A stretch of DNA of 9,499 nt from CAYFZR01 sp046760505 [NCBI: Candidatus Hydrothermarchaeota archaeon] (GTDB taxonomy: Archaea > CAYFZR01): positions 1-9,499 of the forward strand of contig JBHIEG010000048.1 of NCBI GenBank assembly GCA_046760505.1. Reading direction: 5' to 3'. Below, one piece after another: positions 1,495 through 8,265 of the stretch; the first letter of the stretch is position 1, and each line of letters starts with the position of its first letter. The position numbers and the translations under genes are program-made. The notes under the pieces are model-generated. The model was not told the origin of the DNA, searched no databases, and saw only the letters and a list, made by a program, of their open reading frames with translations.

Positions 1495-1515
1495 TTGTCC
1501 TTTCTCACGGGACAA
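1495..1515. promoter_or_regulatory. Operator-like dyad 1 (TTGTCC-N9-GGACAA)
   Basis: This is a perfect 6-bp inverted repeat with a 9-nt spacer, overlapping the predicted transcription start of the winged-helix regulator. Its centre (1505) is 53 bp, close to five helical turns, from the centre of the second copy, so both would face the same side of the DNA. Confidence 0.7.
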
Positions 1516-1529
1516 AATATTTATACTTC

Positions 1530-1538
1530 CTTATAAAC
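1530..1538. promoter_or_regulatory. Shared, near-symmetric TATA element of the divergent promoters
   Basis: The element reads TTATAAA on the plus strand and TTTATAAG on the minus strand, so one TATA element could serve both directions. It sits between the two dyads, about 29 and 24 bp from their centres. A second minus-strand candidate, TATAAATA at 1518-1525, could serve the regulator with initiation near 1496. Confidence 0.5.
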
Positions 1539-1548
1539 CTTTCTATTA

Positions 1549-1567
1549 TGTCCTACTTAAAAGGACA
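1549..1567. promoter_or_regulatory. Operator-like dyad 2 (TGTCC-N9-GGACA)
   Basis: The dyad has the same half-sites and the same 9-nt spacer as the one at 1495-1515. Its centre (1558) is about 24 bp from the shared TATA element, where initiation of the plus-strand transcript is expected. Binding here would block the small membrane protein genes. Confidence 0.7.
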
Positions 1568-1790: not shown

Positions 1791-2006
1791 ATGGAAGACA
1801 GACTCCTGAAATTTAAGATGGATAAATTAGAAAACCTACTAAAACAAATGGATAAAAGATTAAACAACATAGAAGTTAAAATAAATGAAATGGAAAGGAA
1901 AAACTCAAAAAAATGGGAAACAAGATTCTTGTTCTTTGTCTTGATTTCCATAATGCTCGTCTGGAGCTGGCTGTTGCTCAGTTATGTTGTTCCAATAAGG
2001 ATTTGA
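1791..2006 (+). CDS. Small coiled-coil protein with a C-terminal membrane anchor
   Basis: The 71-residue product starts with a charged helical region (1-42) with heptad leucines/isoleucines (LLKFKMDKLENLLKQMDKRL and the following IEVKINEME), predicting a coiled coil. One hydrophobic segment follows (about 46-67, FLFFVLISIMLVWSWLLLSYVV) and a three-residue tail. This is a tail-anchored topology with the coiled coil probably cytosolic. The ATG at 1791 is supported by GGTGA at 1780-1784, six nt upstream and complementary to the archaeal 16S rRNA end. It lies 28 nt after the two-segment membrane protein and is likely co-transcribed with it. A partner role between the two is inferred from context only. 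It converges on the glycerol-3-phosphate dehydrogenase gene, with 27 nt between the stops. Confidence 0.65.
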   Translation: MEDRLLKFKMDKLENLLKQMDKRLNNIEVKINEMERKNSKKWETRFLFFVLISIMLVWSWLLLSYVVPIRI

Positions 2007-2033: not shown

Positions 2034-3074
2034 TTACCGAAGACTATCTTCGATATGCTCTGCTTCTCTGCTCATTAAATATTCCATTGATTCCTGAGGG
2101 TTCTTATCCCTATGAATCATTTCATAAATCTCATTGAATATCGGAGTCTCTACATCTATATTTTCACACAGTACAGGAATGGCCTTCGTAGTGTAGTATC
2201 CTTCCACCAGCCTGTGTTCTGTTTCCATTTTCTCCAAGGCTTCTTTTGGAGTAAATCCTTTTCCTATCAATCTGCCGAATTCTCTATTTCTAGATTTACC
2301 CGTGCAGCTCATCCATAAATCATTTCCCCAGCACTGACTCTCCATTGAGAATGTATGGGGTTTTGCTCCGAGAGAAACTGCGATATCTTTTGCTTCTTTT
2401 GCGGCTCTTGAAATCATATGGGTTTCGCTTCCATACGGCAAACCTAGGCCATATATTATTCCAGCAAGAATGGCTATAACATTCTTGAATGCTCCTGCGT
2501 ATTCAACACCGATTAAATCGGTGTTTCCGTAAATACGCAAGGCGTTGCTATGAAAAATTTCTTGCAATTTTTTGAGAGTGGAGGGGTTTTCGCATGCAAT
2601 ATCTGCCCCCAAAGGTGCACCATCAACTAAATCTCGGGCAAATGTTCCACCGGATATTTTAGCAATTTCATAATTTATTGAAGCAGTGGCCATTTCTTCT
2701 TTGATTACTTCTGAGAATATTTTGGCTGATTCAATTTCCAGTGCTTTTGCGGTATTCAAAATCACTACCTCTTCTTCAAGATATCCCCTTATTTCTCTTA
2801 AAACTTCTCTAATTGCCGGAGAAGGAATTGCCAAAATAACAATCTCTGCATTTTTCAGCAAATCTCCTTTATCGTTTGTCAAAGAAATATTTGGAGGTAG
2901 TTTTTTATCCCTAAAATGATACAGGTGCTTCCTGTATCTTTTTAAATGGTCTATTAACTTCTCGTTTGAATCATAGGCCTTTATTTCAACATTTTTGCTC
3001 TTCAAATATTTTTTACCTAGGTAACGGGAAAGAGCAAATCCGAACATTCCAGTACCTACGATTGCTATTTTCAT
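2034..3074 (-). CDS. gpsA: NAD(P)-dependent glycerol-3-phosphate dehydrogenase
   Basis: This enzyme interconverts dihydroxyacetone phosphate and sn-glycerol 3-phosphate in the cytosol. The product is 346 residues, normal for the family. The Rossmann motif is GTGMFG (7-12), with Asp35 after the second strand, which hints at NAD preference. Family motifs follow: NTAKALE (107-113), SGGTFARDL (141-149) in place of the bacterial SGPSFAKE, EYAGAFKNVIAILAG (191-205) with the presumed catalytic Lys198, and SCTGKSRNREFG (256-267), the SRNR phosphate-binding loop. The ATG at 3074 is right because the glycine motif follows at once; an in-frame extension to 3185 only overlaps the neighbouring gene. The upstream gene ends one nt before this start, so translation is probably coupled. 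Archaeal lipids use the other enantiomer, glycerol 1-phosphate, so this product most likely serves catabolism or a soluble or head-group phosphodiester, as the neighbours suggest. Confidence 0.88.
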   Translation of the reverse strand: MKIAIVGTGMFGFALSRYLGKKYLKSKNVEIKAYDSNEKLIDHLKRYRKHLYHFRDKKLPPNISLTNDKGDLLKNAEIVILAIPSPAIREVLREIRGYLEEEVVILNTAKALEIESAKIFSEVIKEEMATASINYEIAKISGGTFARDLVDGAPLGADIACENPSTLKKLQEIFHSNALRIYGNTDLIGVEYAGAFKNVIAILAGIIYGLGLPYGSETHMISRAAKEAKDIAVSLGAKPHTFSMESQCWGNDLWMSCTGKSRNREFGRLIGKGFTPKEALEKMETEHRLVEGYYTTKAIPVLCENIDVETPIFNEIYEMIHRDKNPQESMEYLMSREAEHIEDSLR

Positions 3075-3075
3075 T

Positions 3076-3780
3076 TTATCTACCGAAAAGTTCCAGAGCT
3101 TTTTCAATATCCTCGGGAGTATCAGCCTCCACCCATTTAAGTCCGTGGACATCTTCGCAGTACATTTTAATTTCTTTGAGCACATTGTTCAAAGCGTATT
3201 CAAACCACTTCCTCTTCAGTTCTTTTTCGATGCATTTTTCTATCTCATCAAATAATACCTCGCTTCCTTTAGATGAGAGTTTAAAAATTCCTATGGTGGA
3301 GCCATCACTGCTTTCCCTCGATGCATCTTTTGGTAAAATTTCAACTACTCTCCCATCTCTTTCTCTAATTTTTAGCTCCTCTAAATCGTAATACTTGCTA
3401 TCCACGGGTGCAATATCTCCTTCTTTTGAGACGAGTTTTTCAATTATGGCCTCTTCAAAAATTACATCCCCGTTTAGTAAAATGAACTCCTCCCCTTTCA
3501 GATGGTTACTTACTAAATAGAGGGAATATATGTTATCTGTGACTTCGTATTCTTCGTTCATTATTAGCTCTACACCATCGATGTCTCCTATTTTTTCTCT
3601 TACCCTGTCCGCTTTGTATCCGATAACTACGTATATGTCTTCTACAGAATTTTTTCTCAGGATTTCAATTTGTCTTTCTATAATCGTCTTTTCTCCCACC
3701 CTTATTAGACACTTTGGTCTATCTTTTGTAAGTTCGGGCATTCTTGTTCCTCTGCCAGCAGCAAGTATAACCGCTTTCAT
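3076..3780 (-). CDS. Nucleotidyltransferase of the sugar/polyol-phosphate type (NTP_transferase fold)
   Basis: The 234-residue product has an intact active site. MKAVILAAGRGTRM (1-14) is the nucleotide-binding loop, RPKCL (21-25) carries the conserved Lys23, LLNGDVIF (101-108) carries metal-binding Asp105, and WVEADTPED (216-224) carries the second Asp, Asp220. The segment DNIYSLYLV (82-90) and the short length resemble the phosphocholine cytidylyltransferase (LicC) and inositol-1-phosphate cytidylyltransferase branch more than the long glucose-1-phosphate enzymes. It should therefore join a nucleotide, perhaps CMP, to a phosphorylated alcohol in the cytosol. The start is fixed by the N-terminal motif. 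It lies 17 nt after the CDP-alcohol phosphotransferase gene and 1 nt before gpsA, suggesting it makes the CDP-alcohol used by the former. Substrate candidates are glycerol 3-phosphate or inositol 1-phosphate; the sequence alone does not decide. Confidence 0.8.
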   Translation of the reverse strand: MKAVILAAGRGTRMPELTKDRPKCLIRVGEKTIIERQIEILRKNSVEDIYVVIGYKADRVREKIGDIDGVELIMNEEYEVTDNIYSLYLVSNHLKGEEFILLNGDVIFEEAIIEKLVSKEGDIAPVDSKYYDLEELKIRERDGRVVEILPKDASRESSDGSTIGIFKLSSKGSEVLFDEIEKCIEKELKRKWFEYALNNVLKEIKMYCEDVHGLKWVEADTPEDIEKALELFGR

Positions 3781-3797
3781 ACGCTAAAACTAGAGAA

Positions 3798-5039
3798 TTA
3801 TTTATCTTCTTTAATTTTTTGTTCATCGAAGAATCTATAAAGCACCGATATGACGGATATGTTTATAAAAACACCCATGAAAAGCATTGTATAAATCAGA
3901 AATTCTTGGCTGAAATGAGCCAAAATTCCCCCTATCATTATCATGAATAGCCTCATATCCCTGCCGAATATCATGCTTCTTAATCCGGTCAGGTGAAACA
4001 CATAACTTGGAAAAATACATGCAGATATCGCTAAGAAGAAGGCAACTATACTCAATTTGGTAAATCCGTATGCAAATACCATGCCTAGGACGATTGAAAA
4101 ATCCACATATCTATCTGTGATAGAGTCAAATACTGCTCCAAATTTTGATTTCATATTTTTTACTCTTGCAATTTCCCCATCCGAGCAATCAATGATTGAG
4201 CAGGTTTGAGCCATTATTCCAGCAAGGAAGAAATTTCTCGTAAAGAACAATGCGGAGGAAAACAGGCCAATCATAAAAGAAATTAGGGTTACCAAATTTG
4301 GAGTAATAAACTCGTATCTTACAAGTATCCTTGTAATCTTCGTCGAAATCTTTCTGTTTATAATTCTATTTATGATACCATCTGTTTTTCTTATTAAACC
4401 CTTCTCTATAGATTTTTCTGCTTTTCCTAAATCCTCTCTTCCGTCAATCTCAATCCAGAAATCATCGATCAGTTCGTATTCTACTTTTCCATTTTTTGCA
4501 AGTTCAAGGATTATATCCGAGAGGCTTTTATCTCTGTTCCTGAACTTTTCTGCATAATCAAGAACCTCTTTTTTGCAGTACAAAAAACCTGTATCGAAGT
4601 ATTCATACTCTTCAAGCTCTTTTCCTATATCAACAATTTTTTTCCCTTTAACCTTAACCTTTGTTGCTTCATTAACATTTTTGCTCTGAAGGCTTACAAG
4701 AACAGTGGTTAGTTCTTTTCTATCGATTTCAAAAAATTTCTCTCCATAGAAATTGTTTGCATTCAATAAAATGAAATCATCGGTTACGAAATCCTTTGTT
4801 AAATATAAACCCCAAACATTTCCTTTTTCTGGCTTAGAATTATAAACTATCTTAACATGCGGAAATTTTCCTTTTATAAATTCTCCAACTTTTTCATCAT
4901 GATATACCAAGATAATTTCGTGTCCTTTCAATTTCCTTACAGAATGTTCTATTACTGGCATGCCAAACAGAAAATCGAGTAAGTTTGACTCCTTAGAATC
5001 TCTCCTTTTAAATTCTGTTGCTATTATAACCGCCTTCAT
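3798..5039 (-). CDS. CDP-alcohol phosphotransferase with a degenerate N-terminal nucleotidyltransferase domain
   Basis: The 413-residue product has two parts. Residues 1-210 align with the inositol-1-phosphate cytidylyltransferase type (NEATKVKVKGKKIVDIGKEL at 123-142, FDTGF at 148-152, WIEIDGREDL at 195-204). However, the glycine-rich loop is replaced by ATEFKRR (7-13) and the metal-site Gly-Asp is replaced in LLNANNF (91-97), so this domain is probably inactive. Residues 240-405 form about six membrane helices with an intact signature D284xxDGxxAR(x)8G301xxxD305xxxD309, the metal and CDP-alcohol site. It should transfer a phospho-alcohol group from CDP-alcohol to a second alcohol, at the membrane. 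The layout matches the IPCT-DIPPS fusion of di-myo-inositol-phosphate synthesis and related Archaeoglobus proteins. The start at 5039 (MKAVII) is chosen by alignment; ATG 5048 is also possible. The intact nucleotidyltransferase gene directly downstream may compensate. Confidence 0.85.
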   Translation of the reverse strand: MKAVIIATEFKRRDSKESNLLDFLFGMPVIEHSVRKLKGHEIILVYHDEKVGEFIKGKFPHVKIVYNSKPEKGNVWGLYLTKDFVTDDFILLNANNFYGEKFFEIDRKELTTVLVSLQSKNVNEATKVKVKGKKIVDIGKELEEYEYFDTGFLYCKKEVLDYAEKFRNRDKSLSDIILELAKNGKVEYELIDDFWIEIDGREDLGKAEKSIEKGLIRKTDGIINRIINRKISTKITRILVRYEFITPNLVTLISFMIGLFSSALFFTRNFFLAGIMAQTCSIIDCSDGEIARVKNMKSKFGAVFDSITDRYVDFSIVLGMVFAYGFTKLSIVAFFLAISACIFPSYVFHLTGLRSMIFGRDMRLFMIMIGGILAHFSQEFLIYTMLFMGVFINISVISVLYRFFDEQKIKEDK

Positions 5040-6435: not shown

Positions 6436-7041
6436 TTGTATTTCACCTGCCCAAGTTGCTCTCCTCAGGAAGAGCTATTGCACGAAGTAATTGAAGAGAA
6501 AAGTAGGGGATCCGTAAGACTGATCCTTATAAAATGCCCTAAATGCAGCACCATCCATGAGATATCTCTTATCGAAGAGAAGGCGATTCCCATAAAAACA
6601 ATAATAAGCAAGGGAAAGAAATCCGAAAGAACGACCCTCTATCTCAAGGGCGACTATCCCAAGGAGCTATCTGTAGGAGATAAACTAGACTTAAATGGGC
6701 CACTAATAGTCTCCGCAATTGAGGACAAAAAGGGAAAACGCGTAAGTAAAGCAAATATAAAAGATATCGGAGTTCTCTGGTGCAAGGTTAAAGATTCCAT
6801 AAAGGTTACAGTTAATCTTGGGAAGTATTCAAAGAGCTTTAAGGTTAAAACAAGTCCCGAAGAGGTATTTAAAATCGGAGAGGTTTACAGGATCAGCGAT
6901 CTTAATTTTATTGTACATGCAATAAGAGCAAAGGGATCTACAAAGAGACACGGAAAATATCTTGCTGAGGAGATCGATAGATTATACGGTAAGATAACTC
7001 CTATAAAAGCGAAAAAAGTACTGGACGTGATAGAAAATTGA
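6436..7041 (+). CDS. HVO_0476-type zinc-ribbon protein
   Basis: The 201-residue product has an N-terminal zinc ribbon with ligands CPSC (5-8) and CPKC (34-37), about 25 residues apart, followed by beta-rich domains. GDKLDLNGPLIVSAIEDKKG (81-100) and GEVYRISDLNFIVHAI (148-163) are the parts I associate with this archaeal family, which is described only as a zinc-finger protein. Many basic residues (RAKGSTKRHGKY, 164-175) suggest nucleic-acid binding, as an inference. The start is a TTG at 6436. No ATG or GTG exists in frame between it and the stop at 6385-6387, and the zinc ribbon begins four residues later, so the start cannot be moved inward. It is the first gene of an operon and its stop overlaps the methyltransferase start by four nt (TTGA). 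Confidence 0.8.
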   Translation: MYFTCPSCSPQEELLHEVIEEKSRGSVRLILIKCPKCSTIHEISLIEEKAIPIKTIISKGKKSERTTLYLKGDYPKELSVGDKLDLNGPLIVSAIEDKKGKRVSKANIKDIGVLWCKVKDSIKVTVNLGKYSKSFKVKTSPEEVFKIGEVYRISDLNFIVHAIRAKGSTKRHGKYLAEEIDRLYGKITPIKAKKVLDVIEN

Positions 7042-8190: not shown

Positions 8191-8265
8191 GGGCTCGTGG
8201 CTCAGCCTGGTTAGAGCGTCCGGCTGATAACCGGGAGGTCCGGGGTTCAAATCCCCGCGGGCCCA
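8191..8265 (+). tRNA. tRNA-Ile (GAU)
   Basis: A full cloverleaf can be folded. The acceptor stem GGGCTCG (8191-8197) pairs with CGGGCCC (8258-8264) with one G-U pair, and the discriminator is A8265. The D stem is GCTC/GAGC. The anticodon stem is TCCGG/CCGGG with loop CTGATAA, giving anticodon GAT at 8226-8228. The T stem CGGGG/CCCCG closes the loop TTCAAAT. There is no intron and no encoded CCA (ATCT follows). It decodes ATT/ATC isoleucine codons. Confidence 0.97.

Follow-up and report, generated by a model that had tools for sequence, protein, structure and literature searches.

A repeated dyad forms a probable operator pair in the divergent promoter region of an archaeal TrmB/Lrs14-like winged-helix regulator

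RESULTS

We focused on an AT-rich intergenic region of 91 bp in a 9,499-base stretch of archaeal DNA (referred to here as the window), which separates a minus-strand gene for a winged-helix protein from plus-strand open reading frames (ORFs). This region contains two exact matches to TGTCC-N9-GGACA, dyad 1 at 1496-1514 (TGTCCTTTCTCACGGGACA, centre 1505) and dyad 2 at 1549-1567 (TGTCCTACTTAAAAGGACA, centre 1558), in agreement with the original prediction of identical half-sites and an identical spacer. The two centres confirm the predicted distance of 53 bp, with a midpoint at 1531.5. Extended by one base on each side, dyad 1 reads TTGTCC/GGACAA (1495-1515) and dyad 2 reads ATGTCC/GGACAA (1548-1568). 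Between them lies a TATA block, TTTATA-N6-TATAAA (1520-1537), in which, as read from the sequence, each direction of transcription has one candidate TATA element. The block is centred at 1528.5, 3 bp from the midpoint of the dyads, making its earlier description as a near-symmetric element a fair one.

The minus-strand gene (964-1479) encodes a protein of 171 amino acids that, by its predicted fold class, is a single-domain TrmB/Lrs14-like winged-helix protein. This assignment draws on Pfam, a structure model and Foldseek. The protein matches PF01978 (TrmB) with 34.6 bits (E value of 1.8e-8), above the curated cut-off of 25.6, while its NCBIfam matches to Sta1 (8.4e-11), Lrs14 (7.6e-10) and MreA each fall under the respective cut-off, which places it outside curated Lrs14/Sta1 membership (41.9 bits versus 80; 38.7 versus 90). 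The structure model was built from a four-row alignment and has a mean pLDDT of 63.7, with block means of 75 to 93 across residues 41 to 130. The modelled winged helix spans residues 35-112, with a recognition helix at 77-89 and wing strands at 93-97 and 108-112, and is followed by a long C-terminal helix at 115-141 and, at 144-171, by a tail of low confidence. The top Foldseek matches were TFE-alpha, AF2008 (1sfx), a Methanosarcina regulator (3r0a) and AbfR2 (6cmv). Given that only the helix and the tail follow the winged helix, the 171-residue protein contains no C-terminal effector or sugar-binding domain. It also contains no cysteine, as is the case for its orthologues L001, L002 and L005 (see below), so that all four lack the conserved dimer-interface cysteine of OxsR-type thiol regulators. 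For a protein with neither a sugar-binding domain nor a cysteine, no effector is predicted.

On the plus strand, the first ORF (1571-1762, TTG or GTG start) encodes a possible membrane protein of 63 amino acids, proposed from hydropathy and ORF frame. It is strongly hydrophobic along most of its length, sufficiently so for membrane spans, and had no family match in Pfam or NCBIfam searches. Its codon signal is weak (0.088), exceeding five of six noncoding control frames (-0.284 to -0.086) and lying just under the sixth (0.091). A possible protein of 71 amino acids follows (1791-2006, plus strand), with a coiled-coil-like N-terminal part, one hydrophobic stretch that could span a membrane and a moderate codon signal (0.209). 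Candidate homologues of the latter, matching in 2 of 23 genomes at E values of 0.003 to 0.007, were too weak to accept.

Several other features of the window are worth recording. A minus-strand cluster (2034-5039) encodes a GpsA-like glycerol-3-phosphate dehydrogenase, an NTP transferase and a fusion of an NTP transferase with a CDP-alcohol phosphotransferase, and this fusion resembles the di-myo-inositol-phosphate enzyme of the Thermococcales (235.8 bits against a cut-off of 580). The latter enzyme is linked with thermophiles, and the cluster hints at a thermophile and at a compatible-solute or phospholipid pathway. The protein encoded at 6436-7041 has matches in 6 of 23 genomes, all at 35% identity or less. 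A tRNA-Ile (gat) gene at 8191-8265 precedes a 71-residue C-terminal fragment of a tyrosine integrase (PF00589, 8449-8664), a pattern as would be left by an element integrated at a tRNA gene. Finally, an ORF for a beta-propeller (PQQ-like) protein contains an exact direct repeat of ∼55 bases (1-55 and 421-475) that starts with base 1 of the window, which may be an assembly overlap at the contig end or a genuine propeller repeat.

TGTCC-N9-GGACA is the sole perfect 5-bp dyad (spacer of 3 to 15) that recurs within 120 bp or less in the window. Dinucleotide shuffling of the window produced some recurring 5-bp dyad pair in 56 of 500 cases, and the 91-bp segment has an unremarkable best single-dyad score, which 89 of 300 shuffles equalled; both figures would fit a chance repeat within AT-rich DNA. 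However, recurring pairs with at least three G/C per half-site, a cut picked once the half-site had been seen, occurred in none of the 500 window shuffles, and 20,000 shuffles of the segment yielded any dyad pair in 13 cases and a G/C-rich pair in none. Together with the dyad match at the promoter of an orthologue described below, this makes a chance repeat highly improbable. When up to two mismatches were allowed, the pattern was no rarity: the whole window contained five occurrences versus 1.94 expected, a number reached in 10 of 200 shuffles. The significance resides in the repetition and the common half-site, not in the strength of any single dyad.

In archaeal promoters, the TATA box lies ∼25 bp before the transcription start, with the BRE just upstream of it. 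By this layout, the leftward promoter of the regulator gene would have its TATA box at ∼1537-1530, its start near 1509, within dyad 1, and its BRE at ∼1544-1538, separated by about 4 bp from the left half-site of dyad 2. The plus-strand promoter would have its TATA box at ∼1518-1526 and its start near 1548, bordering dyad 2, while its BRE would coincide with the right half-site of dyad 1. The claim that each dyad sits at the expected start of one divergent gene agrees with these predicted positions. Owing to the arrangement of start and BRE at both dyads, each bound dimer could hinder both promoters.

The orthologues place the regulator in two or more archaeal groups that are distant from each other. 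Two orthologues were found among genome contigs, in archaeon BMS3Abin16 (L001) and SZUA-236 (L002). In the phylum of archaeon BMS3Abin16, 5 of 23 genomes have a match at 1e-5, of which three contain a convincing orthologue (L001, L002 and, in genome G015, L005, with 53%, 52% and 47% identity to the window regulator over the alignment), and two were excluded as distant (38% over 69 amino acids and 29% over 98 amino acids). A further search matched 16 of the 23 genomes, from which 13 were excluded as distant, including these two. Among plasmids there was one orthologue, on a Natrinema thermotolerans plasmid (41.8% identity over 79% of the query); the phages searched contained none, and two scans of viral contigs gave no confirmed relatives.

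The genes around the orthologues differ from those in the window. In L001/L002, the gene upstream of the orthologue is divergent and encodes a protein of 117 or 120 residues; in L005, it is also divergent and encodes 428 residues, whereas Natrinema lacks a divergent gene. When we inspected the lists of ORFs and genes, nothing beside the orthologue in any of the four loci was similar to the small membrane ORFs of the window, so these ORFs do not belong to a conserved gene pair. The Natrinema locus has an annotated fibrillarin-like gene near the regulator orthologue (L046 1091-1777), and on visual inspection the next ORFs near the orthologue in G015 resemble those for Nop5 and fibrillarin (L044 8255-9891); no fibrillarin-like gene was seen in the window.

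The promoter of L005 contains the dyad TTTTGTC-ATATTATACAC-GACAAAA (N11; L005 1459-1483), 2 bases before a GTG start at 1486, which has the same core, the same register and a similar promoter position as the window dyads. Against TTGTCC-N9-GGACAA, a pattern taken from the window alone, it scores 10 of 12. This score was reached in 59 of 20,000 shuffles of the L005 promoter and at 1 of 114,375 positions of a 28-locus background, in which the only G015 DNA is L044 with its promoter masked, the near-duplicates L007 and L013 are both present, the promoters of L001, L002 and L046 are included, and loci chosen by the pattern itself are left out. Given about three independent lineages tested, the L005 match would be expected with a probability of about 0.2 to 1%, which is supportive, not proof. 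The promoters of L001, L002 and Natrinema lack the site: their best scores (8, 8 and 7 of 12) were equalled in 916, 703 and 1,497 of 3,000 shuffles. A site matching the window dyads precedes the orthologue in one of the four promoters scored, where L001 and L002 are close relatives of each other. Conservation upstream of orthologous gene pairs, whose absence the original prediction had named as counting against it, is thus partly lacking: a matching dyad is present at L005 but not at the other three promoters, and the divergent partner is present in none of the four loci.

L001 and L002 lack the site even though they are closer to the window regulator than L005. In the modelled recognition helix, the window regulator has YPSSVREAL and L005 has HPSSVRQAL, so that both share PSSVR, while L001/L002 have SSSTR instead (YSSSTREAL). 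This split would agree with the presence or absence of the site; Natrinema, with YPSTVREAL and a promoter without the dyad, does not help.

L001 and L002 contain a different long imperfect dyad, TGTTGTTTTGTC-GGA-GACTAAACAGCA, which is identical in both and immediately precedes the TATA box of the orthologue gene (L001 5907-5933; L002 5239-5265). It holds a TTGTC half-site at another spacing. Against 300 shuffles, the best-dyad score was significant for L001 (2 shuffles) and not for L002 (91) or L005 (62). The activator-like place of the L001/L002 dyad could indicate that the window sites are an activating platform, or that they serve the plus-strand gene only, with no autorepression, and TrmB proteins are capable of both activation and repression (PMC4158304). 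However, the window dyads each lie at an expected start site, downstream of a TATA element, and we consider such a role quite improbable.

Across the three genomes with orthologues, G001, G002 and G015, the strict pattern TGTCC-N9-GGACA occurs 1, 1 and 0 times versus 1, 1 and 1 for reversed-pattern controls, so the proposed genome scan returned counts at or under the control, and we rejected the strict pattern as a regulon signal. The relaxed core TTGTC-N11-GACAA, defined once the L005 site had been seen, occurs 4, 0 and 3 times versus 5, 1 and 0 for reversed controls. Of these seven sites, the gene context was looked at for the one before the L005 orthologue. The lack of enrichment over the reversed control in G001 and G002, together with the three orthologue promoters without the site, would suit a different regulator that governs the promoter pair, with the adjacent winged-helix gene merely its target. 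This is unlikely, since in the 1.2-Mb genome of G015 the relaxed core occurs at three places only, one of which directly precedes the orthologue even though the neighbouring genes differ. The dyad-binding protein is likely the adjacent winged-helix regulator.

The dyads could also act as RNA, forming a small leader hairpin near each expected 5' end. Both can form hairpins of 6 bp (-5.8 and -6.9 kcal/mol; z of -2.3 and -3.6), the L005 site folds as well (7 bp, -4.6; z of -4.5), and dyad 1 resembles a plus-strand terminator (1 found versus 0.1 expected). However, folding is expected of any DNA dyad, and the same half-site letters in both dyads and the core shared with L005 indicate that a protein recognises the sequence, whereas a hairpin would not require such identity. 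Moreover, the stems are short, while the di-myo-inositol-phosphate-like enzyme encoded nearby suggests a thermophile, and a terminator at dyad 1 has no evident use because no plus-strand gene ends just before it. A function as RNA is therefore very unlikely.

DISCUSSION

The dyads are real and probably a functional operator pair at an autoregulated divergent promoter. Autorepression, i.e., repression by the winged-helix protein of its own gene through these dyads, is the best reading, which we favour with somewhat better than even confidence. It is based on a pair beyond chance, the adjacent regulator gene and an orthologue (L005) with a matching dyad; this last point lends support to the autorepression proposed earlier, while the three orthologue promoters without the site weigh against it.

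The closest described systems share parts of this arrangement. OxsR of Haloferax volcanii is a single-domain TrmB protein that senses via cysteine C24 and binds CGGnCGnGCG; its motifs downstream of BRE/TATA are linked with repression, and motif position was proposed to set activation or repression (PMC9426492). The window regulator is likewise a single winged-helix domain of PF01978, but it has no cysteine and its site differs. For TrmB, TrmBL1 and Tgr of the Thermococcales, PMC4158304 describes the sites TACT-N3-AGTA and TATCAC-N5-GTGATA and palindromic operators at BRE/TATA or the start site, with autoregulation proposed for Tgr. Although the PF01978 winged helix and the palindromic sites at the promoter are shared, the window regulator lacks the C-terminal sugar-binding domain of TrmB, the site sequence differs, and the half-site centres in the window are 14 bp apart, wider than in the published TrmB-family sites compared. 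The same paper cites autoregulation for Lrs14 and describes MreA as a regulator whose motif could not be identified (PMC4158304). The likeness to the Sulfolobales proteins Lrs14, Sta1 and AbfR2 consists of the best NCBIfam matches and the fold match to AbfR2. CsmR, a Haloferax regulator, has the site TATCA-N4-TGATA (PMC13286277). Tar (TK0271) of Thermococcus kodakarensis activates from TGGACA-N8-TGTCCA upstream of BRE/TATA (PMC6737238). This archaeal palindrome is made of the same GGACA/TGTCC letters, but we rejected the window dyads as a Tar operator since its half-sites are turned the opposite way. Among the matches listed by text searches of the literature for TGTCC/GGACA and TTGTC/GACAA, which sites given only in figures would escape, we saw no archaeal operator built like the window dyads, consistent with the view that the dyads are not a known named operator.

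In the autorepression reading, a homodimer of the winged-helix protein, joined via the long C-terminal helix, would bind each dyad. At dyad 1 it would cover the predicted start of its own gene and reach the BRE of the plus-strand promoter; at dyad 2, which lies ∼4 bp past the BRE of the regulator promoter, it would cover the predicted plus-strand start. The bound protein would hinder RNA polymerase or TFB at both promoters, resulting in negative autoregulation and in repression of the plus-strand gene content. We infer dimerisation, binding, the transcription starts and repression rather than activation from the arrangement of the locus. Cooperativity between the dyads is a conjecture from the 53-bp spacing alone, and co-control of the small membrane protein genes, which no relative supports, is a plausible conjecture.

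More broadly, the regulator may belong to a branch of single-domain TrmB proteins, free of cysteines and effector domains, which would use a separate class of operator, TTGTC-N11-GACAA, in two or more archaeal lineages; in the window, a pair of these sites would bracket an overlapping TATA platform, each dimer hindering one start and the BRE side of the other promoter. We regard this generalisation as possible but doubtful. The kind of switch is ordinary, whereas the sequence of the site is apparently undescribed. The dyads provide a testable operator for an archaeal winged-helix regulator group for which we saw no named site in the literature searched, and the bracketed-promoter layout offers a neat test of how archaeal repressors act on overlapping face-to-face promoters.
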